Shown: positions 17,867 through 37,905 of the stretch, in pieces
How positions within the stretch are numbered: position 1 is the stretch's first letter
How the letters are laid out: each line of letters starts with the position of its first letter
DNA from: a virus
IMG/VR virus record: IMGVR_UViG_3300027631_002331
Coordinates: 25,480 to 89,479 of that record
Length of the DNA stretch: 64,000 nt
Direction: 5' to 3' (one strand)
Translations under genes and position numbers: made by a program
Notes under the pieces: model-generated
The model's input: only the letters and a program-made list of their open reading frames with translations
Told to the model about the DNA's origin: nothing
Database searches by the model: none

Positions 17867-18847
17867 ATGAGGAACATTACTGAGGAGAGAATAGTTTACA
17901 AACCTTTTGAATACCCGGAGGCGTTTGATTTTTACTTAAAACAACAACAAGCACATTGGTTATGGACTGAAGTTCCTATGATGGCAGATGTAACGGATTG
18001 GAAATCAAATCTATCAGAAACTGAAAAAAATATTATAGGATCTATCCTCAAGGGATTTGCTCAAACTGAAACAGTAGTAAACGACTATTGGTCAAACTTA
18101 GTTACTAAGTGGTTTAGAAAACCTGAAATCATTGCTATGGGTGTATGTTTTGCTAATATGGAAACTGTACATGCCGAAGCATATTCTTTATTAAACGAAG
18201 AACTAGGATTAGATGATTTTAGTGAGTTTTTAGAAGATGAAACAACGATGGCTAAAATCGAAAACCTTATGAGTGTTAGAGATGGCCATGATGGTAAACC
18301 TGATTGGAATGCTAGAGCTAAGTCGTTAGCCATATTTTCAGCATTCACTGAAGGTGTAAATCTATTCTCATCATTCGCTGTTTTATTATCTTTTAAACTA
18401 CAAAATAAACTTAAAGGTGTAGGTCAGATAGTAGAGTGGAGTATTAGAGATGAATCACTACATTCAAATGCGGGTTGTTGGTTATTTAGAACTTTATTAG
18501 AGGAAAACCCAGAAATAAACACACCTGAACTAAGAGCAGAAATCGAAGAGGCAGCAAGATTATCTTTAAAACTCGAACTAGATTTTATTGACAAAGTTTA
18601 TGAGATGGGTGATTTAGATGGATGTCCTAAATATGATTTAGTATCTTTTATTAAACATAGAGTTAATACTAAAATGGGTGATTTAGGTTATGGTGCTATT
18701 GTAAACGGCATAGATGAATCAGCTGTTAAAAGAATGAAATGGTTTGATTCACTATCAGCAGGAAAACAACATACTGATTTCTTCGCAAATAGAGTTACAA
18801 ACTATAGTAAAGGAGCACAAAACTGGGACGCAAACGATATATTTTAA
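17867..18847 (+). CDS. nrdB: Ribonucleotide reductase class I beta subunit
   Basis: A 326-residue ferritin-like subunit. Metal-ligand motifs are visible: MADVTDW, then ETVHAEAY, in which the Glu and His ligands and the tyrosine in the radical position (E-x-x-H-x-x-x-Y) are kept, FTEGVNLFSSFAVL, and WSIRDESLHSNAGC. It is therefore probably a tyrosyl-radical enzyme (class Ia-like). It makes the radical for reduction of ribonucleotides to deoxyribonucleotides. Its partner, NrdA, starts 4 bases after the stop, so the two are co-translated. The thioredoxin genes at 37660 and 53662 could supply electrons. Confidence 0.94.
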   Translation: MRNITEERIVYKPFEYPEAFDFYLKQQQAHWLWTEVPMMADVTDWKSNLSETEKNIIGSILKGFAQTETVVNDYWSNLVTKWFRKPEIIAMGVCFANMETVHAEAYSLLNEELGLDDFSEFLEDETTMAKIENLMSVRDGHDGKPDWNARAKSLAIFSAFTEGVNLFSSFAVLLSFKLQNKLKGVGQIVEWSIRDESLHSNAGCWLFRTLLEENPEINTPELRAEIEEAARLSLKLELDFIDKVYEMGDLDGCPKYDLVSFIKHRVNTKMGDLGYGAIVNGIDESAVKRMKWFDSLSAGKQHTDFFANRVTNYSKGAQNWDANDIF

Positions 18848-18851
18848 AAAC

Positions 18852-20564
18852 ATGGACAACAACTTGATTTCAAATACTGATAACTGGGTAGCAGGTAAAG
18901 ACTATCCTGAGTTTTTTGATGAGATTTCACTCTCAACAATCTCAAAGGGTTATTTACTACCTGGTGAAACACCAAAAACAGCTTATAGACGAGTAGCTAA
19001 AGCAGCATCTATGAGACTTAAAAAACCAGAACTTGAAAATAAGTTCTTTAAGTTAATGTGGAATGGGTGGTTAGGTTTAGCTTCACCTGTTTTATCTAAT
19101 ATGGGTACTGATCGTGGTTTACCTATCTCATGTTTTGGAGTAGATACACCTGATTCAGTTAGAGGTATTGGATTAACAAACGCGGAATTGATGAAACTAA
19201 CATCACAAGGTGGTGGTGTTGGTATTTCACTATCTCGTATTAGAGGTAGAGGAACAGAGATTTCAGGTAATGGTAAATCTGAAGGGGTTGTTCCATGGGC
19301 TAAAATATATGATTCAACTATAGTAGCAACAAACCAAGGTAATGTAAGACGAGGCGCAGCATCTGTTAATTTAGATATTAATCATATAGACATATCGGAG
19401 TTTATGCAGATTAGAAGACCTAAAGGTGATCCTAATAGGCAATGTCTAAACTTACACCAATGTGTTGTTGCTGATGATGCCTTTATGAGAAAGTTAGAAG
19501 CAAGGGATCAAGAAGCAATGGGTTTATGGGCTGAGATTTTAAAGTCAAGAATGGAAACAGGTGAACCCTATATTATGTTTAAGGATAATGTTAATAAAAA
19601 CAATCCTATAGCATATGCTATGAATAACTTAGAAGTAAGTATGACTAATATTTGTACTGAAATCACTTTATTTACAGATGAAGAACATTCGTTTATTTGT
19701 TGTTTATCTTCTTTAAACTTAGCTAAATATGATGAGTGGAAAGATACAGACGCTGTAGAGTTATCAACTTGGTTTTTAGATGGTGTAATGCAAGAGTTCA
19801 TTGACAAATCATCAGGAAGAGAATCACTAAAACGTACTCATAACCATGCTCGTAAAGGTCGTGCTTTAGGTTTGGGTGTAATGGGTTGGCATTCATTTTT
19901 ACAACAAAAGAATCTACCATTTAACTCAATAGCATCAACAGCACATACACATAATATATTTTCAGATATTAAGTTTAAAGCTGAAAAAGCATCAAGAGAT
20001 CTAGCTCAAGAATATGGTGAACCACTTTGGTGTAAAGGTACAGGTATGAGGAATACGCATTTATTAGCGACAGCTCCTACTGTATCGAATAGTGTCATAA
20101 CAGGAGGTATTTCCGCAGGTATCGAGCCTTTACCAGCGAATATTTACACATTTAATGGTGCTAAAGGAACGTTTATTCGTAAAAATAAATCATTAGAAGC
20201 ATTACTTGAATCAAAAGGTAAAAATCAAGATAAATGGTGGGATATGATGTTAGCACAAGATGGTAGTGTTATGGGATTACCAGATGATGTATTAACACCA
20301 GATGAAAAAGAAATATTCTTTACATTCCCAGAAATAAACCAACTTGAACTAGTACGTCAAGCTGCTATACGACAAAAATACATAGATCAAACACAATCAC
20401 TTAACTTATCTTTTACACCTGATGATTCACCAAAATGGATTAATCAAGTTCACCTAGAAAGTTGGAAACTGGGGATAAAGACATTATATTACCTACGTAC
20501 TGATTCCGTTATTAAAGGAGACTTAGGAAGTAGAGTAGCAGATTGCGTGAGTTGTGATGGCTAA
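18852..20564 (+). CDS. nrdA: Ribonucleotide reductase class I alpha subunit, short form
   Basis: Start chosen at ATG 18852, after the NrdB stop; a longer frame from 18744 overlaps NrdB. The 570-residue protein retains the catalytic set: ISCFGVD (first redox Cys), SQGGGVGISLSRIRG, NICTEI with FICCLSSLNL (second Cys and thiyl Cys), GLGVMGWHSFLQ, YYLRTDS (the Tyr pair of the radical path), and a C-terminal CVSC pair for re-reduction. It is about 180 residues shorter than E. coli NrdA, mainly because the N-terminal ATP-cone is missing, so dATP inhibition through that domain should be absent. Confidence 0.93.
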   Translation: MDNNLISNTDNWVAGKDYPEFFDEISLSTISKGYLLPGETPKTAYRRVAKAASMRLKKPELENKFFKLMWNGWLGLASPVLSNMGTDRGLPISCFGVDTPDSVRGIGLTNAELMKLTSQGGGVGISLSRIRGRGTEISGNGKSEGVVPWAKIYDSTIVATNQGNVRRGAASVNLDINHIDISEFMQIRRPKGDPNRQCLNLHQCVVADDAFMRKLEARDQEAMGLWAEILKSRMETGEPYIMFKDNVNKNNPIAYAMNNLEVSMTNICTEITLFTDEEHSFICCLSSLNLAKYDEWKDTDAVELSTWFLDGVMQEFIDKSSGRESLKRTHNHARKGRALGLGVMGWHSFLQQKNLPFNSIASTAHTHNIFSDIKFKAEKASRDLAQEYGEPLWCKGTGMRNTHLLATAPTVSNSVITGGISAGIEPLPANIYTFNGAKGTFIRKNKSLEALLESKGKNQDKWWDMMLAQDGSVMGLPDDVLTPDEKEIFFTFPEINQLELVRQAAIRQKYIDQTQSLNLSFTPDDSPKWINQVHLESWKLGIKTLYYLRTDSVIKGDLGSRVADCVSCDG

Positions 20565-20592: not shown

Positions 20593-21213
20593 ATGAATTT
20601 ACAAAAAACATTGAAGTTATTTTTATTTAGTTTTATTATTGGGTTTTCGTCTTGTACTAAAGCTCAATTACAAGAACCTAACTTAAGACAACAAGTTAAA
20701 GTTAATACTCCTATATTTTCTGTAATTTATTCTGAAACAAAAGAACAACCCCTAAAACTCGTTTACAGGTCTTCAAATAGACCTAAAAATGTAGATAGGG
20801 GTTCAATGAACTTTTATACAGAATCTAAATACCATACTTCGGATAACAGAGATTATTATAGAAATGTATGGGATAAAGGTCATCTAGCTCCTGCTGCTAC
20901 ATTTTCTGATAGTAGAGAAAACTTAAAACAAACATTTTCATATCTTAACTGTGCCTTACAAAACCAATACCTAAATAGAGGTGCTTGGAGAATATTAGAG
21001 GAGCAAGAAAGAAAATGGGATGATCAAGAAGAACTAATAATCACAATTGAAATAAAATTCTCAGATTCAATTCTACCTACAGGGGCTACACTACCTAGTA
21101 GGTTTATTAAATGTATTGAATTTACAAAAAGTAATGTTAAACGCTGCTTTTCCTTTCCAAATAAAAAACCAACAATGGGTTGGGAGGAATATGAAGTAAA
21201 ACATTTACGTTAA
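20593..21213 (+). CDS. Exported DNA/RNA non-specific endonuclease, lipoprotein (NUC/EndoG family)
   Basis: A 206-residue protein with an N-terminal signal ending in a lipobox-like IGFSSC (about 17-22), so it is probably a lipid-anchored envelope protein. The nuclease core shows WDKGHLAPAATF, a variant of the DRGH catalytic motif with the histidine kept, and LNCALQNQYLNRGAWRILEE, the usual Asn...Asn...Trp-x-x-LE metal-binding segment. Enzymes of this family cut both DNA and RNA without sequence preference. It is the first gene of an export-rich block and is followed 39 bases on by the TonB-dependent receptor. I am fairly sure of the family; anchoring and side of the membrane are inferred. Confidence 0.85.
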   Translation: MNLQKTLKLFLFSFIIGFSSCTKAQLQEPNLRQQVKVNTPIFSVIYSETKEQPLKLVYRSSNRPKNVDRGSMNFYTESKYHTSDNRDYYRNVWDKGHLAPAATFSDSRENLKQTFSYLNCALQNQYLNRGAWRILEEQERKWDDQEELIITIEIKFSDSILPTGATLPSRFIKCIEFTKSNVKRCFSFPNKKPTMGWEEYEVKHLR

Positions 21214-21252
21214 AGGTTATGTATTGTTTAATTTAAACTCAAAAAAACGAAA

Positions 21253-23730
21253 ATGAAAAAACTCGTTACAACGTTGCTGTTAGTATTCCTAACAGTAGGA
21301 GCTTACGCTCAAGAATCATCCACTGATTCTAAAACCATCTTAGATGTAAATTTAGAAGAGGTAGTAATTACTTCACGTGTTATTGATGTCGCTAGAGAAA
21401 GAGAGACACCAATTGCCGTAAGTACAATCTCAGCACAAGAGGTGTTGTTGAAAGTAGGAAATCAGGAATTTCCAGAAATCATGAACAAGACACCAGGGGT
21501 GTATGCTACTAAACAAGGAGGGGGATATGGTGATAGTCGTATTTCTTTAAGAGGTTTTAATCAGCGTAATACTTCTTTTCTTATCAATGGTCAACCCGTT
21601 AATGATATGGAAAACGGTTGGGTGTATTGGTCGAATTGGCAAGGATTATCAGATGTAACATCTAATATCCAAATCCAACGTGGTCTAGGTGCCACTTCTT
21701 TAGCAGTACCATCCGTAGGAGGTACTGTTTCTATTTTCACTAAAAGTGCTGAAAAAGCTCAAGGTGGATCTTTAACTCAGATGTTGGGTAATGATGGTTA
21801 TACCAAAACTACTGCAGTATATAATACTGGGGTAAATGATAAAGGTTGGTCATCATCTTTTTTATTAACTAAATGGTCTGGAGATGGATACATTTATAAT
21901 ACATCAGGAGCAGGATGGACTTATTTCGCAGCCGTAGGATATACACCAGAAGGTTCAGCTCATAGCTTGAACCTTTCTTTTTTAGGTGCTGGACAATGGC
22001 ATCACCAAAGAGATGTTTGGGTATCTATTAGAGATTATCAAAACTTCGGAGATGAAGGTATTGATAGACGTTGGAATACCAACGGTGGTACTTTAAATGG
22101 TGAAGAGTATAACTTACGTAGAAACTTCTACAATAAACCTCTTGCTACTATAAACTGGGATTGGGATATTTCAGATAATGTACAGTTAAACACATCTGTA
22201 TACGGTTCAGCTGGTAGAGGTGGAGGAACAGGTCCTCGTGGTAGAAACTATTATGAAGGATCTATTGATATGTTACCTTTTCGTAAGGATTTAACTGAAC
22301 ACTACTTAGAAAATGGTAAAGGAACTCGAGATGCTAATGGCTTTATTAACTATGACGCAGTAGTAGCTCATAACTCCCAATATGAGGTAGGATCTCACAA
22401 TGATAAAGATTATGCTCGTAACGTATTAGTACGTAGAGCTTCTATGAATTCCCATAACTGGGTTGGAGCTATTTCTAAGCTTAACATCCAGAAAGATAAA
22501 ATGAGATACTCTTTAGGAGTTGATTTACGTAACTATACTGGTTATCACTATAGAACAATGAATGATTTATTAGGTCTTCAAGGGTATGCTTCTACAGGTA
22601 ATCAAAATCTAGGTACTCAAATTTATGGTGCGAGTGATTTAGTATCAGCTAACCCATTTAGAAGTACTAATATTGGAGATAATGAAGCAAAAATTGCTTA
22701 TTACAATATTGGATTTGTAAAGTGGGCAGGTGTTAATGGTTTAGTAGAATATGCTGGTGATAAGATTACCGCAGTACTACAAGCCGGAGCATCTAACCAA
22801 CAATTCCAAAGAGAAGATAGATTTGCAAACGTAAATAATCCTATTTCAGATAAAGCTAACTTAGGTGGTGGGTATCTAAAAGGAGGTATTAACTATAACT
22901 TTACTAAAAAATCTAACATATTTGTAAATGCTGGTTATATTGATAGACAGCCTTTATTTGATGCCGTATTTCCTAACTTTGGAAATGATATCAACCCAGA
23001 CCTACAAAACGAACGTATCGAATCATTTGAGATTGGATATGGTTATATAGGTAAGAAATTAAAGTTAAATGTTAATGCATATAATACTAATTGGGGTAAT
23101 AGATTTGTTTCTCGTAGTTTATCTAATCAACAAGGAGTTGATGGGTTTGCTCAATTTAGAAATATTGATGTAACTCATAAAGGTATTGAAGCTGAAGCAA
23201 CATATAGAATGGGTTCAACTAAACTAAGAGGTATGTTATCTATTGGTGATTGGACTTACACTAAAGACTTCGAAGCAGAGCTATTTGACGAAAACCAACA
23301 ATCAATTGGTACTGGTAAACTTTATACTAAAGGTGCTAAGGTTGGAGATGCCGCTCAAATTACTGCTTTTATAGGTGTTGATCAAAGATTAGGTGATAAA
23401 TTAAAAGTAGATCTAGATTATAGATTTGTAGATGGTCTATACGCTGATTATAGTATTACAGATTCAGCATTTACTAACCCAGATAATGAAGGAGCATTAA
23501 AATTACCTTCTTATGGTATTGTAGATTTAGGAGCTACATTTTATGCAGCTAATGGTTGGTCATTGAGAGCAAACATTAATAACTTATTAGATACCACTTA
23601 CATTGCAGAGTCTAATAGTAATATTCATGCAACTGCTGGTTCCACTACCTGGAATGGAATTGATACAAGAAATAGTGTATGGTTCGGATTTGGACGTACA
23701 TGGAATGTTTCGCTTAAATATAAATTTTAA
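21253..23730 (+). CDS. TonB-dependent outer-membrane receptor
   Basis: A full-length 825-residue receptor. Residues 1-19 form a clear signal peptide (ending GAYAQ). A TonB-box-like segment with LEEVVITS follows. The plug domain (about 50-165) includes IMNKTPGVYATKQGGG, SRISLRGFNQRNTS, LINGQPVND and VPSVGGTVSIFTK. The rest is a 22-strand-type barrel with many aromatic girdle residues, DRQPLFDAVFPNFGND, and a final NVSLKYKF ending in Phe, as needed for barrel insertion. No N-terminal carboxypeptidase-like domain is present, unlike many Bacteroidota receptors. It lies between two exported nucleases and is followed by a strong terminator. The substrate is unknown. Such a receptor in a phage genome is unusual. 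Confidence 0.95.
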   Translation: MKKLVTTLLLVFLTVGAYAQESSTDSKTILDVNLEEVVITSRVIDVARERETPIAVSTISAQEVLLKVGNQEFPEIMNKTPGVYATKQGGGYGDSRISLRGFNQRNTSFLINGQPVNDMENGWVYWSNWQGLSDVTSNIQIQRGLGATSLAVPSVGGTVSIFTKSAEKAQGGSLTQMLGNDGYTKTTAVYNTGVNDKGWSSSFLLTKWSGDGYIYNTSGAGWTYFAAVGYTPEGSAHSLNLSFLGAGQWHHQRDVWVSIRDYQNFGDEGIDRRWNTNGGTLNGEEYNLRRNFYNKPLATINWDWDISDNVQLNTSVYGSAGRGGGTGPRGRNYYEGSIDMLPFRKDLTEHYLENGKGTRDANGFINYDAVVAHNSQYEVGSHNDKDYARNVLVRRASMNSHNWVGAISKLNIQKDKMRYSLGVDLRNYTGYHYRTMNDLLGLQGYASTGNQNLGTQIYGASDLVSANPFRSTNIGDNEAKIAYYNIGFVKWAGVNGLVEYAGDKITAVLQAGASNQQFQREDRFANVNNPISDKANLGGGYLKGGINYNFTKKSNIFVNAGYIDRQPLFDAVFPNFGNDINPDLQNERIESFEIGYGYIGKKLKLNVNAYNTNWGNRFVSRSLSNQQGVDGFAQFRNIDVTHKGIEAEATYRMGSTKLRGMLSIGDWTYTKDFEAELFDENQQSIGTGKLYTKGAKVGDAAQITAFIGVDQRLGDKLKVDLDYRFVDGLYADYSITDSAFTNPDNEGALKLPSYGIVDLGATFYAANGWSLRANINNLLDTTYIAESNSNIHATAGSTTWNGIDTRNSVWFGFGRTWNVSLKYKF

Positions 23731-23734
23731 TAAT

Positions 23735-23763
23735 ATGGGGGCTTCGGCCCCCATTTATTTTTT
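23735..23763 (+). terminator. Strong rho-independent terminator after the TonB-receptor gene
   Basis: GGGGGC (23737-23742) pairs with GCCCCC (23747-23752) around a UUCG tetraloop, extended by AT/AT, and is followed by a T-rich tract (TTTATTTTTTT). It is the most stable hairpin I saw in the window. Confidence 0.85.
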
Positions 23764-23898
23764 ATGGAAGTATTAACAGAACTTTGGGAAAAAGAAGGTT
23801 ATAAGCATGTAGGTAATTGGATTGATGGTAGTATAGCTATACTACTATTGATGGGAGGATATTACTACAAAAAATGGGTTGATCACAAATTTAAATAA
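23764..23898 (+). CDS. 44-residue membrane protein
   Basis: A small open frame with an ATG just after the terminator T tract. It begins MEVLTELWEKEGYKHVGNW and has one hydrophobic span (IAILLLMGGYYY) followed by basic residues. It ends 3 bases before the S1/P1-type nuclease gene. I recognise no family. The start immediately behind a terminator is odd, but no other start fits. Confidence 0.45.
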   Translation: MEVLTELWEKEGYKHVGNWIDGSIAILLLMGGYYYKKWVDHKFK

Positions 23899-23901
23899 AT
23901 T

Positions 23902-24684
23902 ATGAAAAAGTTATTAGTTTTATTATTACTACCAACAATGTTATTTGCAGACGATTGGGGTAAAGTGGGTCATAGAATTATTGGTGAGATTGCCGAAAGA
24001 CAATTAACCAAAGAAGTAAAAGAAATAGTATACGATATATTAGATGGGGAATCATTAGCATCAGTTAGTACATGGCCCGATGAAATGAGAAGTAATCCTG
24101 AATTTGATAAATTTGGTAAATGGCATTATGTTAATTTACCTTTAGATAAAGAATATACAGAAATAGAACACACCCAAGAAAATGTAGTTATCATTATCAA
24201 AAAAGCAATAGGTATTTTAAAATCCCCTAATGTTGATAAAGAAACAAAAAAGTTCTATCTTAAGTATTTAGTACATTTAGTTGGTGATTTACACCAACCC
24301 ATGCATACTGGTAGGTATGAGGATTATGGTGGTAGTAAAATCAGAATAAAATTTAAAGGTAGAAAAGGTCAAGAAACTAATACTAACCTTCATGTGTTGT
24401 GGGACACTAATTTAATTGATGATTTTAAAATGTCCTATACAGAATGGAGTACACATTTAATTAATAAAATGAGTAAAAAAGAGATTACACCGTCTATGGA
24501 AACTATGAACCCTGTAGATTGGACTTATGAATCTCACCAATATGCAAAACAAATTTATAAAGATACACCACAAGGTATCTCTTTATCGTATGATTACGTA
24601 TACAAATACCAACCAGTATTAGAAAAAAGGTTATTTTTAGCTGGTAAAAGATTAGGATTATTAATTAATGAAATTTTTGAATAA
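23902..24684 (+). CDS. Secreted S1/P1-type zinc nuclease
   Basis: A 260-residue protein. The signal peptide ends near LFA, followed by DDWGKVGHRIIGEIAERQL, the N-terminal Trp and His region that binds the zinc cluster. Other zinc-ligand motifs are WPDEMR, WHYVNLP, HLVGDLHQPMHTG and NLHVLWDTNLI. This matches bacterial S1/P1 nucleases, which degrade single-stranded DNA and RNA and can remove 3'-phosphates of nucleotides. The enzyme should act in the periplasm or outside the cell. With the NUC-family lipoprotein and the TonB receptor it makes an exported nuclease set around a transporter. The next gene starts at the overlapping ATGA. Confidence 0.93.
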   Translation: MKKLLVLLLLPTMLFADDWGKVGHRIIGEIAERQLTKEVKEIVYDILDGESLASVSTWPDEMRSNPEFDKFGKWHYVNLPLDKEYTEIEHTQENVVIIIKKAIGILKSPNVDKETKKFYLKYLVHLVGDLHQPMHTGRYEDYGGSKIRIKFKGRKGQETNTNLHVLWDTNLIDDFKMSYTEWSTHLINKMSKKEITPSMETMNPVDWTYESHQYAKQIYKDTPQGISLSYDYVYKYQPVLEKRLFLAGKRLGLLINEIFE

Positions 24685-24911
24685 TGAAAGAAGAAACTAA
24701 AGAATTACTTTACAAAGTATTTGTAATTTACATCGGTACAGCGTCCTTAATGGTAGGTCCATTTTTTGTAAACTTTTTATTAGGTAAAGTACTATCAGTA
24801 ATAGGATTAGCATTATTAACAGTACAAACACAAAAAACAAAATCATATAACCTATCTTTACTTAATGTAGTAGGTATATGTGGTTACTTATATAGCATCT
24901 TTACTCAATGA
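24684..24911 (+). CDS. Small two-span membrane protein, unknown
   Basis: A 75-residue protein with two or three hydrophobic spans (about 12-32, 35-45 and 58-72). Its ATG overlaps the stop of the S1/P1 nuclease gene and its stop overlaps the next start (ATGA), so it is translationally coupled. No family is recognised; it may be a holin-like or envelope accessory protein. Confidence 0.55.
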   Translation: MKEETKELLYKVFVIYIGTASLMVGPFFVNFLLGKVLSVIGLALLTVQTQKTKSYNLSLLNVVGICGYLYSIFTQ

Positions 24912-25441
24912 GCAAGTTAGTTAACTTATTTGGAGGTCCTGGAATTGGAAAAAGTGGGATTGCTGCTGGTATAACTTATAAACTTAAGAAAAACCATATT
25001 AGTTGTAATAATCCATATGAATTCCCTAAAACTATAGCTTGGGATAATAATCTTCCTGCAATCAAAGATCAATTATATATTTTTGCTAATCAACATAGGG
25101 GAATAGCACAAGCATATGGTAAAGTAGATTATATTATAATTGATTCACCAATTTTATTCTCTACAATTTACCACACATACTATACTAATGGATACCCAGC
25201 TGAATATTATAGACAGCCCTTCCATGATTTAGTAGTCGATCTACATAATCAGTATGATAGTATAAACATATTGTTAGATAGAGGAGAAACAATACATAGT
25301 GAGGATGAAAGATTCCAAGATTTAGAAGAATCAATAGCAATAGATAAACTATGTAAAACGGTTTTAGATAAACATAATATACCATACCACACAATAAAGG
25401 TAGGTAAAAATACTGTTAAAAAAATAATGAAACTACTATAA
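24908..25441 (+). CDS. P-loop nucleotide-binding protein (AAA/kinase-like)
   Basis: A 177-residue cytoplasmic protein. The N-terminal Walker A is GGPGIGKSG (about 9-17), followed by a Walker B-like strand VDYIIIDSPILFS and an Arg/Asp-rich LLDRGETIHSEDERFQ segment. The form resembles NadR/ribosylnicotinamide-kinase and related AAA_28 phage proteins, but the substrate cannot be told. It closes the nuclease block and is followed by a terminator. Confidence 0.7.
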   Translation: MSKLVNLFGGPGIGKSGIAAGITYKLKKNHISCNNPYEFPKTIAWDNNLPAIKDQLYIFANQHRGIAQAYGKVDYIIIDSPILFSTIYHTYYTNGYPAEYYRQPFHDLVVDLHNQYDSINILLDRGETIHSEDERFQDLEESIAIDKLCKTVLDKHNIPYHTIKVGKNTVKKIMKLL

Positions 25442-25568: not shown

Positions 25569-26042
25569 ATGAAATGGACAATAGTAATATTAAGTTGCCT
25601 TGTAGGCTTCTTGGCCAAATCCCAAGAAATCAATATAGGTAAAGTAGAAAACAAAATCGTATTAGGCGATTTAGCAGGCAATAGAGACTTAGCCTTTGGA
25701 GTACGTAACGTACTTGAAGAAGTAGTCCAAGATGCTGGATACGACCTTAATCCCAACTCAATTTCCGAAATTACAGTAGAGATATTATTCTTCGATGTAC
25801 AGAAGAATAACATCCAACTTGCCGTTTATGGTAAGCAAATAGACATTTATATAATAGCTGCTAGAGCAACTTTATATAAAAATGGTAAAAAGAAAAAATC
25901 GGTAACCGCTAAGGGAACTGCTAAATCTATATCAACATCCACCTTAGTAATAGATGAAGGTGGTAAGTTTTCCCAATCAAATGTTTCTACAGCAATAAAA
26001 AAACTATGTGAACAATTAATAAATAAACTAAAAATTAAATGA
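25569..26042 (+). CDS. Exported protein, possibly envelope/YajG-like
   Basis: A 157-residue protein with a signal peptide (MKWTIVILSCLVGFLAKSQ). The mature part has alternating beta strands with a lysine-rich turn (KNGKKKKSV) and a C-terminal amphipathic helix starting at NVSTAIKKLCEQ. That layout is seen in YajG-type and CsgG-neighbour lipoproteins, but the similarity is weak. The first gene of the second exported group; the next gene overlaps it by 4 bases (ATGA). Confidence 0.6.
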   Translation: MKWTIVILSCLVGFLAKSQEINIGKVENKIVLGDLAGNRDLAFGVRNVLEEVVQDAGYDLNPNSISEITVEILFFDVQKNNIQLAVYGKQIDIYIIAARATLYKNGKKKKSVTAKGTAKSISTSTLVIDEGGKFSQSNVSTAIKKLCEQLINKLKIK

Positions 26043-27676
26043 AAAATCTATTAATTCTATTACTACTACCTACTATAGTTTTAGGCCAACTTACATCCTC
26101 AACAGACGGTATTGATATAGATCTTAATTTTGTAAGTACCACTTTAGGAGAGACCGACATTGCTAAAGTTCAAGTTAACGATACCATAATTTTAAAATTA
26201 GACCTCAATAATCTCTCAGATAAAAATATTACATACATTCATGCGGATGTTGAATATAACTCTAATGCATTTACTTTAGTTGATCATACTTTCAACACCC
26301 CCACAAATGCTAATAATTCACTTTTTAGTTGGACCGATACAAAATGGACTCCAAATAGTAATTATGATGAAAATGATTTATGGGCTCAATGGAATGGAGG
26401 AGGAGGATCATATGGTTCTTCTAATGGGTGGAATGTAGATCATTGGCAAGCAATATCAACTACTGCGTTTGAAGGTACTTATGTTACTATGCATTTTTTA
26501 GTAAAAGATACTAGCGTTTCTAATTATACTGATGCTATTAATATTACTATGGCTAGAGTAGCAGACAACTCAGGAACATCAGAATATGTCTTTCCATATG
26601 GTGAGGTAAGAGCATATGAAACCCAATCCATAAGTTTCGTACCTTTAGAAGATTTAGATAGTAATATCTATGTTAAAGTAGATTTTAATTCTAATATAGA
26701 TCCTACAAATGTTAAATTAATTATAGTTGAAGATGGTACTCTTGTAGGTACTGTTCAATTAGACTCAAATGGAGATGCTAATATAACTGAATTTATTACT
26801 AAAAGTGAATCAACATACACCTATAACTTTGTATGGGATGGGACAGATTCTGAATTATCTACTTTAAAAGATAATATAGTAACAATATCAGATGTAGCTT
26901 TAACTCTAAAAGAAGCAGGAGAATTTGATCATGGTAATACTGGAGAAGTATTTAATGTAATACAATATGTAGCAGCAGATGTAAATGAAGATACTGCTAT
27001 TACAGCCCAAGATGCTTATAATATGTTAGGGCATGTTTTAGGTCAAGTTGACCTATATAGTGAATACGACACATTTGAAGAATTTGCTATGGTAGTACCA
27101 GCATCAGACTATAATGCATTAACAACACAACAACTTTTCAGTACAGGTATTCCTGATGATAGTGCTATTAATATAGATTTTACCCAAAACACCCAAGTGA
27201 TAAGATTTAAAGGAGGTATGTTTGGAGATGCTAACCTATCCCATACTGTAAGTCAAGATAACCAAGTAACACTAGCGTCAGCTAAATCCTTCCAATATGG
27301 TATGAGTATGAAAGGAGAATCGTTTATAAACGCTGATTATAGTGTAGCTTTGGAAGATGGTAAAGTAGTAGCTACATTAGAAATATTATCTAATACCACA
27401 GCAGCTTTACAACTCAAATTGGATTTTGACAACACAAGATTAACATTTGAAGAAGTAATATTCAATGTTGGTAACACATCTACTAATTTCGCTACAGCAG
27501 AATCAAATAGAGTTAATGTAGGAGTCATTAACCAACAAGGAGATATAATAGAAAATGGATCTACTATCAAATTAATATTTTCAGGTGATGTAGATTCAAC
27601 AGTAGGGTTAGTAACTATTTTTAATACTGATGCTGCTAGTTTAGAAGGAAAACAACAAATATTAAAACTACAATAA
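26039..27676 (+). CDS. Exported protein with dockerin-like and cohesin-like segments
   Basis: A 545-residue protein with a signal peptide ending near VLGQ. Residues about 20-200 are beta-rich and Asn/Thr/Trp-rich. A segment VAADVNEDTAITAQDAYNML (about 317-336) has the calcium-loop-like D-N-D spacing of dockerins. The C-terminal 180 residues contain AALQLKLDFDNTRLTFEEV, which resembles the strand order of cohesin-like domains (hydrophobic strand, small-residue turn, acidic strand). I see no catalytic motif. It may bind a partner or cell-surface glycan. The dockerin/cohesin reading is an inference; a general beta-sandwich adhesin is the alternative. Confidence 0.6.
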   Translation: MKNLLILLLLPTIVLGQLTSSTDGIDIDLNFVSTTLGETDIAKVQVNDTIILKLDLNNLSDKNITYIHADVEYNSNAFTLVDHTFNTPTNANNSLFSWTDTKWTPNSNYDENDLWAQWNGGGGSYGSSNGWNVDHWQAISTTAFEGTYVTMHFLVKDTSVSNYTDAINITMARVADNSGTSEYVFPYGEVRAYETQSISFVPLEDLDSNIYVKVDFNSNIDPTNVKLIIVEDGTLVGTVQLDSNGDANITEFITKSESTYTYNFVWDGTDSELSTLKDNIVTISDVALTLKEAGEFDHGNTGEVFNVIQYVAADVNEDTAITAQDAYNMLGHVLGQVDLYSEYDTFEEFAMVVPASDYNALTTQQLFSTGIPDDSAINIDFTQNTQVIRFKGGMFGDANLSHTVSQDNQVTLASAKSFQYGMSMKGESFINADYSVALEDGKVVATLEILSNTTAALQLKLDFDNTRLTFEEVIFNVGNTSTNFATAESNRVNVGVINQQGDIIENGSTIKLIFSGDVDSTVGLVTIFNTDAASLEGKQQILKLQ

Positions 27677-27677
27677 T

Positions 27678-28055
27678 ATGAAATACAATTTTAAAAAAAG
27701 ATATTACATCTGGGTGATTTTATTATTCTTATCATGTGCTAGAGATACAGATAATTTTGATATACAAACAGACCCAATAAGTAGATTAGAAATGGCTAGT
27801 TTAGAAGGATTAAAATTTGATGGAGGTAGTATCAAAGATGGTACCAAATTTAATTTTAAAACTCAAACAGCTGGAATTTATACTTTAGAAATTAGAGACC
27901 ATTTTAAAATCCTTATATCTAAAAGTATTATAAATGCTAAAATCGGAGATAACGTATTAACATTCTATACGAAAGCACTCCAAGAAGGGGACTATAATAT
28001 TATAATCTATAACTACACTAGCAAAGTTCAAGAAACTAAAATGACTATACAGTAA
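27678..28055 (+). CDS. Small lipoprotein, unknown
   Basis: A 125-residue protein with a hydrophobic N-terminus ending in the lipobox-like LFLSC (about 19-23), so it is probably lipid-anchored. The mature part has a beta-rich fold resembling secretion-sorting tails (KTQTAGIYTLEIRD, YNIIIYNYTSKV). It starts 2 bases after the upstream stop and is followed 5 bases on by a membrane gene, so it belongs to the same operon. Confidence 0.6.
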   Translation: MKYNFKKRYYIWVILLFLSCARDTDNFDIQTDPISRLEMASLEGLKFDGGSIKDGTKFNFKTQTAGIYTLEIRDHFKILISKSIINAKIGDNVLTFYTKALQEGDYNIIIYNYTSKVQETKMTIQ

Positions 28056-28059
28056 TATT

Positions 28060-28314
28060 ATGGAAGACATTAAAAAAGCAATTATTGGTATAATAACATT
28101 AGCCATTACAACTGGTGGTGGGTTATTAATAAAAAGTCTATTTGAAGGAGAAAAAGAAACGGTAGTAGAAGAAACTACAGAAACAGCTCCACAAGTCATT
28201 ATTAATATGCCACAACAAGAAGTAAAAAAAGATACCGTCGTAAAGAAGGTATATGTTAAACCCAAACCCAAACTATCTGAAACAGAAAAAAGAAAGAAGA
28301 AGATAGATTGGTAA
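28060..28314 (+). CDS. Single-span membrane protein with a charged, proline-rich tail
   Basis: An 84-residue protein with one hydrophobic span (about 7-26) and a Glu/Lys/Val-rich tail that ends in KPKPKLSETEKRKKKIDW. This type (membrane anchor plus periplasmic basic tail) occurs in spanin or TonB-like proteins. Nothing allows a firm assignment. It follows the lipoprotein gene. Confidence 0.5.
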   Translation: MEDIKKAIIGIITLAITTGGGLLIKSLFEGEKETVVEETTETAPQVIINMPQQEVKKDTVVKKVYVKPKPKLSETEKRKKKIDW

Positions 28315-28412
28315 AGTACTTCGCAGTACAAAAAATGAAACCGACGGCGGCAACCATCGGTCTCAAGGTAAATTAAAACAAAATTCAACAGTAACTCAAA
28401 ACAACAAACATT

Positions 28413-28616
28413 ATGAAACCATTAAACTTATTTCGTATTCAATATATGAAATTCATTTCAGAAAGCCAAACTATTTTAGATTATTTCTTTATAATCTGGG
28501 CTCATTTATTAGGAGCTTTAGCTATTACTGGTATTGGGCGTATAATATACGAACTAATTACCAATATGTCAACGTTTAACAACGCAACTTGGGGAGTATT
28601 CGACACCCTTGGTTAA
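28413..28616 (+). CDS. Small membrane protein, unknown
   Basis: A 67-residue protein with one hydrophobic region (YFFIIWAHLLGALAITGIG) and an amphipathic end. The preceding 98 bases hold two small inverted repeats (around 28319-28334 and 28342-28364) but no T run. The following CsgG-like gene starts at TTG 28609 inside its end, so the two are coupled. Confidence 0.5.
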   Translation: MKPLNLFRIQYMKFISESQTILDYFFIIWAHLLGALAITGIGRIIYELITNMSTFNNATWGVFDTLG

Positions 28617-29325
28617 AAAACTATTAGCTAGTTTATTATTAATAAGTAGCTATACCTCAGCTCAAGTTATTGGTAAAACAAAGACTGAAGATTATCAGGC
28701 GGGATTTGAGAAACAAACCTCAATATTCTCAATCCCCGAGTACAATGGTGATCCCATACCCGTTGCTTTACTTAATATAGGTGTAACAGAAGACGTATTA
28801 CAACAATATCCTGAACTCAAAGATAATAGAGTGGGCTTAGGTCTAACTAATATCACTGTAGCGTTTTTAGATGAAACATGGAGATTCGAGTTTGTAGAGA
28901 CTAGAGATGCTATTAAAGATCGTATGGTAAAACAATACGAAGCATCACAAAAAGGATTTACAGCTAATCAGACAGATATAATGGGTAAGATTACTCTTGC
29001 CAAATACTTCATTTATGTAGAAGTATATGACTATTCTGTATCTGAAGATGAAACAGTAAACTTAAAAGACGGAGTAAAAAATACTCTTGTCACTCGATTA
29101 GGTTTACAAATAAGAGCAGTAGATGCTGAAACAGGACTTTATATGACAGGTTCTGGATTAGGTAAAGCTGTGACTACAAGAGAACTTACCCTATCAAACT
29201 CAGACAACTTAGACGAAGTAAAGTTTAACGGCTCTTCTATTGGTGTAACTACTAGAAAGGCTTTAGAAACTGCTGTAGCTAAGATTGTTAAAAGGATGAT
29301 ACGTAAGGGTATATTTGACCATTAA
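28609..29325 (+). CDS. CsgG-like outer-membrane secretion channel protein
   Basis: A 238-residue protein. The N-terminal signal (ending YTSAQ, without a clear lipobox Cys) precedes a CsgG-type domain: IPVALLNIGVTEDV, RVGLGLTNITVAFLDETWRF, RFEFVETRDAIKDRM, the strand DIMGKITLAKYFIYVEVYDYS, and VNTRLGLQIRAVDAETG with GLGKAVTTREL. These are the core features of CsgG, the nonameric curli channel. Usual curli partners (CsgA, CsgB, CsgE, CsgF) are not recognised nearby. It starts at TTG 28609. The gene lies between exported proteins and the acidic-repeat barrel, so it may help export them or permeabilise the outer membrane at lysis; both roles are inferred. Confidence 0.75.
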   Translation: MVKKLLASLLLISSYTSAQVIGKTKTEDYQAGFEKQTSIFSIPEYNGDPIPVALLNIGVTEDVLQQYPELKDNRVGLGLTNITVAFLDETWRFEFVETRDAIKDRMVKQYEASQKGFTANQTDIMGKITLAKYFIYVEVYDYSVSEDETVNLKDGVKNTLVTRLGLQIRAVDAETGLYMTGSGLGKAVTTRELTLSNSDNLDEVKFNGSSIGVTTRKALETAVAKIVKRMIRKGIFDH

Positions 29326-29331
29326 TGGGTT

Positions 29332-31011
29332 ATGAAAAAGTTACTACTAGTTTTATTTTTTACTGCGATGGGGATGTTCGAGGGTCATTCACAGGCCCTC
29401 GTCCAAACCTATATCGATAGATGTACAGGACAAGTAAGTGTCTTTAGTGTGTCTATGGGCGGTAATACTATAGTAGCTTTTTATAATCGTTCTAGATCAT
29501 TTACCTCTCAAGATTTTCAAAACGGAACTCTTCAATCTTGGTTAGAAGAAACATATTTATGGTGGACAAGTTTAAGTCCTTGCTCAACAACAACAACAGG
29601 AGCACAGACAACCCAACAAACTACTCAACAAACCACGCAGCAAGCAGCTAATGCAGCAGCATCAGCAGCTTCACAAGCAGCGGCAAATCCAACTACAAAT
29701 GTACCGACAACTACACCACCTACAACGACAACTGCACCTACGACTACAACTCCTAATACTTCTAATGCAAATACAACTTCTCCAAATACAACTAGTACTG
29801 GAGCGGATACAAGTAGCCAAGGAAATAGTTCGACAGGAACCTCAGGATCTACAGATAGCACGGGAAGCAGCCAAAGCAGTAACAATAGCTCTGAATCAAC
29901 GTCTTCAGCAGAAACAACATCTACAGAAACAAATAACGAATCTTCTACCTCCGAAGCACAAGACACTGAATCAGGAACTTCAGGAGATGAAGGAGGAACA
30001 GAAGAATCTACAGAAGTAGAATCAACTACAGAAGAAAGTACCGAAGAGACAACTACAGAAGAAAGTACCGAAGAGTCAACAGAAGAATCAACCGAAGAAT
30101 CTACTGAAGAAGAATCTACAGAGGAAAGTACTGAAGAAGAATCGACAGAAGAGGAATCTAAAGAAGAGTCAGATGAAGAAACAGAAGACAAGGAGTCAGA
30201 AGAAGACACAGAAGAGGAGAGAGATGAAGAAGAGTCTAAATCCGACGAAGATGAAGAAACTGAGGAAGAAGACACAGAAGAGGAAAGCAACGACAAAGAT
30301 AAAAAGAAGGATAAAAAGAAAAAAAAGAAAAAACGAAGTCTTGCTCCTCCTATCGTTACAGCCAATGCAATGTCACAACAACTCCCAACTGGTGAGTTTC
30401 AACAAGCAGTTACCTTTGGTATAAGTAGATCTTCCTTAATGGGTACTGAAACCTATGGTTTAAATGCTATGGTTTATGATAACTTACAACAATATATGTT
30501 AAGTGCTAGTTTTTCTAAAGTACACATAAATAAAAAAGGTAGAGTAAATAGAGTATATTCAGCATCATTGGGTGGTATGAAGATGTATTCAACTTATATG
30601 GCTATGATGAATCATAGTGTAACTTTTCTAGGTGAAAAAGGATCAGTAGCAGGTATAGCATTTGGAACTAGTTTAACTAGTAATGAAGTAGATGTAATAG
30701 ATGGTTACATAAGTTTTGACAACCAACTACTAGGATTATCACTAACAGGATTTTATACTAAGTCAATACAGGCAACAGGTAAACTATCTATTAGTCCTAT
30801 GTTGGCTATATCATCTCCTTTTATGATGTTTGATATGCTCGAACATACTACTATGTGGAATAGTGATCTTATGATTATAGGTGGATCTAGTTTTAGTTAT
30901 AAACTAACACAAAGATTTGGTCTTAATCTAGGAGCAAACGTAATAGAATCAACGGCAGAAAACTTTCCTACTATGCTTGCTTTTACAATAGGTGGTAGGC
31001 TAAGTTTTTAA
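29332..31011 (+). CDS. Outer-membrane barrel protein with a Thr/Gln/Glu-rich repeat linker
   Basis: A 559-residue protein. A signal peptide (ending GHSQ) leads into about 60 residues with a conserved YIDRCTGQVSVFS part. Next come Thr/Gln/Ala repeats (about 85-155), a Ser/Thr/Asn segment, an acidic Glu-Ser-Thr repeat (about 223-325), and a lysine run (KKDKKKKKKKR). The last 215 residues are beta-rich and end in GGRLSF, with a final Phe, as in outer-membrane barrels. The linker probably extends into the periplasm or outside. It follows the CsgG-like gene at 6 bases and precedes the holin candidate. Function unknown; an adhesin, an anchor or a lysis factor is possible. Confidence 0.65.
   Translation: MKKLLLVLFFTAMGMFEGHSQALVQTYIDRCTGQVSVFSVSMGGNTIVAFYNRSRSFTSQDFQNGTLQSWLEETYLWWTSLSPCSTTTTGAQTTQQTTQQTTQQAANAAASAASQAAANPTTNVPTTTPPTTTTAPTTTTPNTSNANTTSPNTTSTGADTSSQGNSSTGTSGSTDSTGSSQSSNNSSESTSSAETTSTETNNESSTSEAQDTESGTSGDEGGTEESTEVESTTEESTEETTTEESTEESTEESTEESTEEESTEESTEEESTEEESKEESDEETEDKESEEDTEEERDEEESKSDEDEETEEEDTEEESNDKDKKKDKKKKKKKRSLAPPIVTANAMSQQLPTGEFQQAVTFGISRSSLMGTETYGLNAMVYDNLQQYMLSASFSKVHINKKGRVNRVYSASLGGMKMYSTYMAMMNHSVTFLGEKGSVAGIAFGTSLTSNEVDVIDGYISFDNQLLGLSLTGFYTKSIQATGKLSISPMLAISSPFMMFDMLEHTTMWNSDLMIIGGSSFSYKLTQRFGLNLGANVIESTAENFPTMLAFTIGGRLSF
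30000..30310 (+). repeat. Low-complexity acidic repeat DNA (Glu-Ser-Thr codons)
   Basis: GAAGAATCTACAGAAGAA-type units repeat imperfectly inside the barrel gene. They encode Glu-rich units of 4-8 residues. The opposite strand is open here by chance, because the repeated codons have no stop in reverse. Confidence 0.85.
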
Positions 31012-31030
31012 CATATTTATAACAAAATAA
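31011..31030 (+). promoter_or_regulatory. Putative late promoter (ACATATTTATAACAAAATAA)
   Basis: This copy of the late box starts at the last base of the barrel gene and lies just before the holin candidate. It is the C-type variant (TATTTATAAC) shared with 38815. Confidence 0.55.
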
Positions 31031-31034
31031 AAAA

Positions 31035-31343
31035 ATGGACGCAAAATCAAACGCACATAGAAATAGATTTGTAATCACAACGGTTATACTAGCTACTTTT
31101 TTCCTTATTATGATGGGGATAGGAGCTGCTATATTAGGTGATGGTGATACACCCGCTATTCAACAAGAATGGAAAGAAGTATTATTATTAGTATTAGGAG
31201 CATTTTTGGGTTCTTATTCTAGAGTAGTAGATTTTTGGTTTAATGGAAATGATACTAACATAGATGGTAGACCAGATCACACACCACCAGCAGAACCATG
31301 TGATTGTGATGAACCGGACGATGAACTAGATAACCTATACTAA
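31035..31343 (+). CDS. Putative holin (two-span membrane protein)
   Basis: A 102-residue protein with a hydrophilic N-terminus, two hydrophobic spans (about 13-34 and 49-62) and an acidic, Cys-containing C-terminal tail (DHTPPAEPCDCDEPDDELDN). Size, topology, its late-promoter box and the amidase gene one base after it make a holin role likely. I do not recognise a named holin family. The start ATG 31035 lies 5 bases after the late box region. Confidence 0.55.
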   Translation: MDAKSNAHRNRFVITTVILATFFLIMMGIGAAILGDGDTPAIQQEWKEVLLLVLGAFLGSYSRVVDFWFNGNDTNIDGRPDHTPPAEPCDCDEPDDELDNLY

Positions 31344-31344
31344 T

Positions 31345-31833
31345 ATGGCTATTAAACCTAAAGGAATTATATTACATTCTATGTCTGAATACTTAATGTG
31401 GAAGGGCAAAAAATTATACGCTAAAGATTTTCTTAAGGAATTAGGTTTATCAGTACATGGTTTCATCAAACCTGATGGTACCTATGATAAAATGATACCA
31501 TCACCTGGTAAAGCATTCCATGCTGGGAAATCATTACATGAAGGTGTATCTGGTTTAAATTCTCACTACTTAGGAGTAGAATTATTAGTTGAAGGTGTTA
31601 ACGATTATGGATCGTTTAGTAAAAAAATAAATCAAAGAGGAACATACACCCAAGCACAATTTGACACCACAGTAGAAGTATTTAAATATTGGATGAAACA
31701 ATTTAATATACCAGTATCTAAAGTGGTAAGACATTCAGATGTTTCAGGTGATCATGTAAGAGGTAAAAATAAAGGTAAAACAGACCCAGGATCAGCATTT
31801 GATTGGGATGCATTTAAATCATCTTTATCATAA
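31345..31833 (+). CDS. N-acetylmuramoyl-L-alanine amidase endolysin (Amidase_2)
   Basis: A 162-residue enzyme. Zinc and substrate motifs of the Amidase_2 fold are seen: ILHSMSEYLMW, HGFIKPDGTYDKMIP, AFHAGKSLHEG, LNSHYLGVELLV and the C-terminal VVRHSDVSGDHVRGKN with KTDPGSAFDWDAF. It cuts the bond between muramic acid and the peptide stem. There is no signal peptide, so release depends on a holin. It starts 1 base after the holin-like stop. A host-type promoter for the next gene follows. Confidence 0.9.
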   Translation: MAIKPKGIILHSMSEYLMWKGKKLYAKDFLKELGLSVHGFIKPDGTYDKMIPSPGKAFHAGKSLHEGVSGLNSHYLGVELLVEGVNDYGSFSKKINQRGTYTQAQFDTTVEVFKYWMKQFNIPVSKVVRHSDVSGDHVRGKNKGKTDPGSAFDWDAFKSSLS

Positions 31834-36340: not shown

Positions 36341-37150
36341 ATGGCAAAACATGTAGTAGTTTCATTAAGTGGGGGAATGGATAGTTCCACACTATTATTA
36401 AGAGCATTATCTGAATATGATACCGTAACAGGTATTTCATTTGATTATGGTCAAAAACACAGAGTTGAGTTAGAACGAGCTCAATCATTGATTGATTATC
36501 TAGCAGATAATGGTCATAAAGTTAACTATCGTCAAATACAACTAAATGGATTAGTTGATTTATTAGATTCAGCTTTAGTGGAAGGTGGAGATGACGTACC
36601 AGAAGGACATTATGAAAACGATAATATGAAGGAAACAGTTGTTCCTAATCGTAATAAAATGTTTGCTTCTATTACTCAAGCAGTTGCTCTATCAGTAGCT
36701 AATAAAACAGAAGAAACTTGTGATATAGCATTAGGTATTCATGCTGGTGATCACGCCGTTTACCCAGATTGTAGACAAGAGTTTAGAGATGCAGACGATG
36801 CTGCTTTTAGAGAAGGTAATTGGGATGCTGATAGAGTAGGGTATTTTACACCTTATTTAAAAACAGATAAATTAGGAATTTTAAAAGATGGACAAGAATT
36901 GGTTAATGAATTGGGAATTGAATTTGATGAAGTATACAAACGTACTAACACTTCTTATAAGCCCTATCCTAGCGGTAATAGCGACTACAAATCAGCTTCA
37001 TCTGTTGAAAGGATTGAAGCATTTATCGAACTTAATCGTCCTGACCCAGTACAATATGAAGATGAAAGTGGACCAGTCGATTATAGCGTTGCGAAGGCAC
37101 ATGTTCAAAGTGTATTAACTGATCACGTAGCAGTAAAAGGAGATTTATAA
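36341..37150 (+). CDS. queC: QueC-like 7-cyano-7-deazaguanine synthase, zinc cysteines missing
   Basis: A 269-residue ATP-pyrophosphatase. The PP-loop SLSGGMDSSTLL (about 7-18) opens the protein, followed by SFDYGQKHRVELERAQ, VPNRNKMFASI and IHAGDHAVYPDCR, all typical of QueC. The family then has four zinc cysteines before ERIEAF; here the same region reads TSYKPYPSGNSDYKSASS, with none. QueC converts 7-carboxy-7-deazaguanine through the 7-amido form to preQ0. Loss of the zinc site may change stability or the end product. The partner genes are QueD (37898), QueE and FolE. Confidence 0.88.
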   Translation: MAKHVVVSLSGGMDSSTLLLRALSEYDTVTGISFDYGQKHRVELERAQSLIDYLADNGHKVNYRQIQLNGLVDLLDSALVEGGDDVPEGHYENDNMKETVVPNRNKMFASITQAVALSVANKTEETCDIALGIHAGDHAVYPDCRQEFRDADDAAFREGNWDADRVGYFTPYLKTDKLGILKDGQELVNELGIEFDEVYKRTNTSYKPYPSGNSDYKSASSVERIEAFIELNRPDPVQYEDESGPVDYSVAKAHVQSVLTDHVAVKGDL

Positions 37151-37659: not shown

Positions 37660-37905
37660 ATGAAAGAAATACTTTACTTTTCAGCCCCGTGGTGTGGGCC
37701 CTGTAAACAATTAGGACCGATTATGGAATCTTTATCAGGTCAAATCAACTATAGAAAAATCAACGTAGATAACGACACAGAACTATCTACTAAATATGGT
37801 GTTAGAAATATCCCCACTTTAGTTCTTTTAGAAAATGGAGAAGCAGTTAATAGAACGACAGGATTACAATCAAAACAACAAATTTTAAACTTTTACAATG
37901 GGTAA
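37660..37905 (+). CDS. Thioredoxin
   Basis: An 81-residue minimal thioredoxin fold with the active site APWCGPCKQL (about 8-17) and the cis-proline motif RNIPTLVLLENG. It reduces disulfides and may feed electrons to the ribonucleotide reductase (whose alpha subunit has a C-terminal Cys pair). It overlaps the QueD-like gene by 8 bases. Confidence 0.9.
   Translation: MKEILYFSAPWCGPCKQLGPIMESLSGQINYRKINVDNDTELSTKYGVRNIPTLVLLENGEAVNRTTGLQSKQQILNFYNG

Follow-up and report, generated by a model that had tools for sequence, protein, structure and literature searches.

A phage-borne cassette of a TonB-dependent receptor and exported nucleases that may scavenge outside nucleic acid

A TonB-dependent receptor (TBDR), exported nucleases and a probable nucleotide kinase are encoded together, directly after the ribonucleotide reductase genes nrdBA, in an uncultured virus. 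We consider this cassette to be, with somewhat better than even probability, a phage-borne means of breaking down outside nucleic acid, taking up the products and supplying them to phage nucleotide synthesis. The window analyzed here, 64,000 nucleotides in length, represents bases 25480-89479 of one 89,479-base IMG/VR virus record. The original prediction had placed a lipoprotein Endonuclease_NS, a full-length 825-residue TBDR, a terminator and an exported S1/P1 nuclease consecutively after nrdBA, and this order was confirmed. An ORF check recovered the genes described there at the coordinates first given, on the plus strand. Two members had been overlooked, however. The cassette is larger than first reported and extends to a 75-aa membrane protein and a P-loop kinase (Table 1). 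The description of the phage as T4-like was fair in the broad sense only (a split family B polymerase, a DnaB/gp41-like helicase and a RecA/UvsX-like protein).

Table 1. Features of the receptor cassette and its upstream context in the window.
Feature	Position	Strand	Basis
Ribonucleotide reductase (context): nrdB 17867-18847, nrdA about 18783-20564	17867..20564	+	PHROG 86, PHROG 84
Lipoprotein DNA/RNA non-specific endonuclease (Endonuclease_NS), variable cassette member	20593..21213	+	PF01223, 2.3e-19
TBDR leader motif GGTTATGTATTGTTTAATTTAA, candidate promoter or 5' leader element	21215..21236	+	Relaxed motif counts
TonB-dependent receptor, 825 aa: signal peptide, TonB box LEEVVITS, plug, barrel, terminal Phe	21253..23730	+	Pfam, inspection
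Intrinsic terminator 3' of TBDR	23735..23754	+	GC hairpin GGGGGC, UUCG-type loop, T tail
44-codon ORF, likely membrane segment	23764..23898	+	Sequence reading
Exported S1/P1 zinc nuclease; aligned N-terminal Trp is residue 19	23902..24684	+	PF02265, 3.8e-60
75-aa hydrophobic membrane protein, conserved cassette member	24684..24911	+	16 other phage loci, 50-99% identity
P-loop kinase, AAA_28	24908..25441	+	PF13521, 2.2e-12; PHROG 2107 thymidylate kinase

A chimaera joining host DNA to phage DNA had been raised as a possibility. A separate contig (L002) is syntenic with the window between 12.9 and 33 kb, a stretch of about 21 kb in which identity is 86-99%. The nrdA-TBDR junction is also present in L004, L005 and L203, and the junction between the kinase and position 25569 in L176 and L008. 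As the gene order and the junctions were found again in independent phage contigs, the window is not a chimaera; an artefact is likewise ruled out for it by L002, L004, L005, L203 and L176.

Both domains of the receptor scored above the Pfam cut-offs (barrel PF00593, 2e-17; Plug PF07715, 1e-12), and inspection revealed a signal sequence (MKKLV...AYAQ), the TonB box and the C-terminal residues ...KYKF. The TonB box is kept in most of the TBDR copies. The dN/dS of the window receptor (0.10-0.11) indicates purifying selection. An AlphaFold model (pLDDT 80.8) had PqqU and FhuA as its nearest PDB folds, over about 800 aligned columns, and the fold is therefore no pointer to nucleic acids. A sequence search of the PDB with the receptor gave no significant match. 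A glycan importer of the SusCD type was rejected, considering that the scanned genes included no SusD-like neighbor, that the receptor has 825 aa and that its nearest folds are other than SusC.

The lipoprotein nuclease, with a lipobox-like FSSC, matched PF01223 at 70 bits against a cut-off of 23. It keeps the motifs DKGH (DRGH-type) and N..LQ...LN.G.W..LE, including the metal-binding Asn position, and its identity is 97% in L002 and 44% in Immutovirus. The S1/P1 nuclease matched the PDB entry of SmNuc (8qjl) at 1.6e-29; in the alignment with SmNuc, the window protein and each of the complete phage copies retain all nine metal-ligand positions. The gene for the 75-aa membrane protein overlaps the S1/P1 stop codon, and the motif QTQ.TK.YNL.LLN is invariant across the 16 other phage loci. 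A PQ-loop/SemiSWEET identity of this small protein had no Pfam or PHROG support, and its sole NCBIfam match was the sub-threshold CBU_0592 membrane protein. The P-loop of the kinase, G-G-P-G-I-G-K-S, is nearly invariant. The AlphaFold model of the kinase (pLDDT 88) had NadR, deoxyadenosine kinase and thymidylate kinase as top PDB folds, at moderate TM scores of about 0.6-0.7, and a PDB sequence search gave no significant match to solved kinases. Judging from the modeled fold, the product is probably a nucleoside or nucleotide kinase.

The receptor has 453 relatives in viral contigs, compared with none for two other host TBDRs used as queries. Among the 80 viral loci retrieved with the TBDR, the kinase was found near it in 41, the S1/P1 nuclease in 22 and the 75-aa membrane protein in 21. 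Genes of nucleotide metabolism were also near it: IMP dehydrogenase in 15 loci (just upstream), nrdB in 14, nrdA in 13, and ThyX, FolE and PRTase in six each. Within 5 kb of the TBDR, the kinase was absent from about half of the viral loci and S1/P1 from most of them. When the loci were anchored on the partners and had sufficient upstream sequence, the TBDR was present in 13 of 16 S1/P1-anchored and 17 of 22 kinase-anchored loci. Of the three genes originally proposed to travel together, the TBDR and S1/P1 are kept together, but the lipoprotein nuclease, found in only seven of the 80 loci, accompanies them less regularly. The cassette is accessory and dispensable, being absent from most close relatives by NrdA. 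Judged by NrdA, the nearest relative in culture is Flavobacterium phage Immutovirus immuto (NC_055915), which shares the order nrdB-nrdA-...-NUC-...-cohesin, with 71% identity in NrdA and 44% in NUC, but neither the TBDR nor S1/P1 was detected in it. No close TBDR homologue was present in the collection of cultured phages searched.

A tree of the receptor did not reveal a phage clade. Phage and host copies were interleaved, with 14 label changes, at least 11 of them forced, so the receptor family has been exchanged repeatedly between phages and hosts. Ranked by receptor, the closest hosts are for the most part marine Bacteroidota, and identity with the host homologues goes up to 74%. Most hosts carry the receptor as a core gene adjoining pgi. 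Next to the host orthologues are secreted nucleases or nucleotide phosphodiesterases, which belong to several families without relation to one another. ExeM/NucH-type EEP nucleases lie within 4 kb of the host orthologue at 23 loci, which are largely one conserved arrangement; a nucleotide pyrophosphatase lies immediately 3' of it in two distant hosts; and in Ca. Arcticimaribacter, S1/P1, a CNT nucleoside transporter and an Endonuclease_NS are all within 4 kb of the receptor. None of the nuclease, phosphodiesterase and transporter families named near the host receptors occurred in a slightly larger amount of more distant flanking DNA, in a comparison whose seed families were picked after being noticed beside the receptor. 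The nuclease neighbors of the pgi-linked host receptor may be incidental. In some hosts, this ExeM/NucH-type nuclease near the pgi-linked receptor is accompanied by TBDR2 and a DUF5689 lipoprotein. The phage copies thus share with the host orthogroup an orthologous receptor near a secreted nuclease, but they stand with S1/P1, the kinase and the small membrane protein amid phage nucleotide and replication genes, and the window TBDR is without the N-terminal extension found in many copies.

These observations lend partial support to the original prediction, whose scavenging reading is favored by the linked kinase-fold protein, the nucleotide-metabolism neighbors, the retained TonB box and the nuclease or phosphodiesterase neighbors in hosts. 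In the infected cell, DNA or RNA outside the cytoplasm would be cleaved by the lipoprotein endonuclease together with the exported S1/P1. Using host TonB energy, the phage TBDR would take the products in through the outer membrane as nucleotides, nucleosides or short oligonucleotides, and host inner-membrane transporters would carry nucleosides further inward. The phage kinase would then phosphorylate the imported nucleosides, which NrdBA and the replicating phage could use. The usual view is that lytic phages draw on host DNA degradation and on de novo synthesis for most of their DNA building blocks. The cassette suggests that many uncultured marine Bacteroidota viruses, with an import channel of their own, make the infected cell collect outside nucleic-acid building blocks. 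We see an even chance that such viruses repeatedly took the same host receptor and built a DNA-eating system around it, which would digest nucleic acid, including the DNA of lysed neighbors, import the products by TonB and re-phosphorylate them. If this is true, some infected cells use outside nucleic acid, and the recycling of viral lysis products in the sea is changed. It would also suggest which class of ligands to test with an uncharacterized core TBDR that is widespread in Bacteroidota.

The main rival is receptor replacement with superinfection exclusion. The phage receptor would dilute or replace the host orthologue used by competitors, and the exported nucleases would destroy superinfecting DNA in the periplasm, helped by an Imm-like small membrane protein. 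TBDRs are common phage receptors, and repeated derivation of the phage copies from host orthologues is what receptor swapping predicts; both S1/P1 and Endonuclease_NS are predicted to be exported, and the overlap of the 75-aa gene with S1/P1 also fits. However, the receptor is strongly constrained, with TonB box and plug retained in most copies, nucleases already neighbor the host copies, and the linked kinase and nucleotide genes are left without explanation. Homology of the small protein with T4 Imm was rejected (BLASTP E 0.24, hhalign probability 0.3%), and PADLOC defence models matched none of the five cassette proteins. Superinfection exclusion seems unlikely. Phage-encoded envelope proteins that alter the cell surface or block superinfection are known, such as the Lc porin of phage PA-2 and T4 Imm. 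The cassette resembles them in this respect, but no sequence relation with Imm was found and, unlike the Lc porin, the TBDR is an active importer.

It is rather improbable that the same anatomy serves phosphorus scavenging, with phosphate from outside nucleic acids as the gain instead of nucleotide carbon skeletons. Nucleases and phosphodiesterases would suit this equally well, and most of the closest hosts by receptor live in the sea, where phosphorus is commonly in short supply. Nevertheless, the linked kinase, IMPDH, ThyX and NrdBA indicate nucleotides, and no phosphatase or Pst component was found in the cassette. Cyanophages and other marine phages carry nutrient-uptake auxiliary metabolic genes, such as pstS and phoA, that likewise raise the nutrient supply of the infected cell; here, the genes are for an energized outer-membrane receptor, exported nucleases and a nucleotide-kinase-like protein, with no phosphate genes. 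We give slightly less credence to metal or cofactor import, in which iron or a cofactor brought in by the TBDR would serve the class I ribonucleotide reductase or some other enzyme of the phage, and the nuclease genes would separately serve host takeover. The PqqU and FhuA folds and the adjoining nrdBA (nrd genes near 13-14 of 80 loci) are in its favor, but many viral copies are near S1/P1, the kinase or IMPDH without nrd genes, and no siderophore or metal genes were seen around those host or phage copies that were inspected. Assembly artefact or host DNA contaminating the viral contigs is hardly credible: host fragments are possible in IMG/VR and the host homologues are close, but the receptor is surrounded by phage replication and nucleotide genes in tens of contigs with repeated junctions, and the two other host TBDRs had no viral-contig matches.

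In the open-licence PMC literature on phage-encoded TBDRs, we found no account of such a system and only one remark, on the pelagiphage Polarivirus skadi. Its annotated TBDR is placed between the genes for tail tube and capsid and was interpreted as a clue to the adsorption receptor (PMC10504331); the gene is called a TonB-dependent receptor, as here, but it has no nuclease linkage. A0A8D9FQQ5, a "TonB-dependent receptor SusC" of an uncultured marine phage (BFVD/UniProt), is likewise predicted to be a full-length TBDR and also comes from a phage record. However, it has only 12% identity with the window TBDR over the fold match and is a different receptor type. Viral TBDRs of other types were noted in L281 and L282 as well.

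A scan for sigma-70 promoters gave fewer sites than shuffled sequence did. The relaxed leader motif occurred in 22 of 59 phage TBDR leaders, compared with 16 of 908 other phage ORFs and two of 74 host TBDRs, the motif having been chosen on the same data in which it was counted. It was not found close upstream of other window genes, and a general phage promoter was thus rejected. Those phage and host loci that were inspected have terminator-like hairpins downstream of the TBDR.

The source IMG/VR virus record is 89,479 bases long, and the window covers its bases 25480-89479. The predicted row of an Endonuclease_NS (NUC-family nuclease), a TonB-dependent receptor (TBDR), a terminator and an S1/P1 nuclease after nrdBA was found on one strand, with the ORFs and families confirmed. 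All three protein genes were present, although the set named in the original prediction was incomplete: a 75-residue membrane protein and an AAA_28 kinase also belong to it. A chimaera of host and phage DNA, previously raised as a possible artifact, was ruled out. One locus (L002) is syntenic with this part of the window (86-99% over ~21 kb), the nrdA-TBDR junction was found again in L004, L005 and L203, and the junction downstream of the cassette in L176 and L008.

Features of the cassette and of other parts of the window
Feature	Position	Remark
Lipoprotein Endonuclease_NS	20593-21213	same strand as rest of cassette; downstream of nrdB and nrdA
Leader motif GTTAT/C...TTTAA	21215-21236	close 5′ of TBDR
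TBDR, 825 residues	21253-23730	same strand
Terminator, GC-rich	23735-23754	same strand; between TBDR and S1/P1
S1/P1 nuclease, exported	23902-24684	same strand
Membrane protein, 75 residues	24684-24911	overlaps S1/P1 stop codon
P-loop AAA_28 kinase	24908-25441	after the membrane protein
Gene set recurring in other phages	25569-31833	inverted in L012 and L075
Low-complexity protein	29332-31011	within that set; T/S/E-rich repeats, exported-looking
QueC	36341-37150	
PTPS/QueD-like	37898-38362	
Radical-SAM QueE-like	52738-53532	by resemblance
FolE	53951-54640	
Family B DNA polymerase, split	57039-58748, 59101-60036	two ORFs
87-aa ORF	58838-59101	between the polymerase ORFs
GroEL	61985-63595	

Judged from their sequences, the parts of the cassette look functional. 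The S1/P1 of the window, like each complete copy in other phages, kept all nine metal-ligand positions and a conserved Trp directly after the predicted signal peptide region. The Endonuclease_NS of the window retains the DKGH and Asn motifs, and its TBDR has a signal peptide, TonB box, plug, barrel and terminal Phe. The dN/dS of TBDR (0.10-0.11, window copy against five relatives) was similar to that of nrdB (0.097). The AlphaFold model of TBDR has the TBDR fold; its nearest structures, PqqU and FhuA, make the modeled fold uninformative on the substrate. The kinase is predicted to fold like NadR, deoxyadenosine kinase and thymidylate kinase.

Host neighborhoods suggest that the receptor may import nucleic-acid-related products. 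In Ca. Arcticimaribacter, the genes after the TBDR encode S1/P1, a CNT nucleoside transporter, a LOG-type nucleotide hydrolase and Endonuclease_NS. Gracilimonas and Mangrovivirga, which are distant hosts, each have a nucleotide pyrophosphatase/phosphodiesterase that begins 56-77 bases 3′ of the receptor. Of the host loci, 23 have an ExeM/NucH-type nuclease at most 4 kb from the receptor, largely in a single conserved arrangement. None of the nuclease and nucleotide-enzyme families searched occurred in a slightly greater length of host sequence further from the receptor, a comparison that is supportive rather than blind, because the families were picked after the receptor neighborhoods had been inspected. 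It is probable that the cassette serves to scavenge outside nucleic acid. With the expression, location, substrate and flow that we infer, nucleic acid located outside the cytoplasm would be cut, the phage TBDR, driven by host TonB, would import the products, and the phage kinase and NrdBA would convert them into dNTPs.

Many phages have this TBDR, and it is mobile. A viral-contig scan of low sensitivity, depending on exact 8-residue words, gave 453 relatives of the window TBDR and none of two other host TBDRs. At the loci of the best 80 of these 453 relatives, which were fetched, genes within 5 kb of the receptor included the kinase (41), S1/P1 (22), the 75-residue membrane protein (21), IMP dehydrogenase (15), nrdB (14), nrdA (13), Endonuclease_NS (7), and ThyX, FolE and phosphoribosyltransferase (6 each). 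By hand count from tables, TBDR was present in 13 of 16 S1/P1-anchored loci and 17 of 22 kinase-anchored loci with enough upstream sequence. The cassette is accessory, since only 2 of 46 NrdA relatives with room downstream had TBDR there, and the 13 long records in this group, the longest of 166 kb, had none. The set also occurs at different genome positions, e.g. beside QueE or FolE (L006, L007, L083). GroES and GroEL were among the TBDR neighbors in other viral loci, and the window has its own GroEL. A 252,603-base jumbo-phage record (G014) has the window-type TBDR and a different, 658-aa one, shortly after an Endonuclease_NS and with an AAA_28 kinase nearby (L281 2052-2675, 4073-6049, 8288-8842). 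Another type, of 801 aa, lies amid virion-like genes in a 232,028-base record (G019; L282 5524-7929).

The original prediction had asked whether the phage receptors form a single clade. They did not: phage and host copies were interleaved, with 14 label changes, at least 11 of them forced by starred branches, in a quick tree under one model whose count cannot separate gain from loss. The simplest reading of these sequences is that the receptor was exchanged repeatedly between phages and their hosts: Flavobacteriaceae, Balneolaceae, and Schleiferiaceae-like and Cytophagales-like bacteria. The receptor orthogroup is frequent in hosts, mostly adjoining pgi. A contig binned as Crocinitomicaceae (L105) is probably a misbinned phage contig, because it has genes common to phage loci L022, L031 and L032. 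Repeated capture of a host receptor would be accounted for by the main rival, in which the TBDR replaces a host receptor and superinfecting DNA is destroyed; however, this leaves the kinase, the neighboring genes and the retained TonB box without explanation, and we consider it rather unlikely. Phosphorus scavenging seems improbable, and import of a metal or cofactor even less plausible.

The leader motif preceded 22 of 59 phage TBDR copies, whereas it stood before 2 of 74 host TBDR copies and, among other phage ORFs, before 16 of 908. The significance of this contrast is overstated because the motif was picked on the same, related sequences. The motif supports the idea that TBDR may be integrated into phage regulation.

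Phage nutrient-uptake genes are already a known kind; an outer-membrane importer combined with exported nucleases is a new form among them. None of the papers found describes such a system. The most that these papers describe is a TBDR annotated between virion genes of pelagiphage Polarivirus skadi (PMC10504331). One other marine phage TBDR is in BFVD. In 50,697 phage records, S1/P1 had no match and TBDR only distant ones (≤34% identity), all in unannotated metagenomic records. Among cultured phages the closest is Immutovirus immuto; it shares nrdB-nrdA-NUC with the window but lacks TBDR and S1/P1.

Elsewhere in the window, the family B DNA polymerase is split. QueC and the PTPS/QueD-like, QueE-like and FolE genes suggest that the phage may carry 7-deazaguanine DNA modification.
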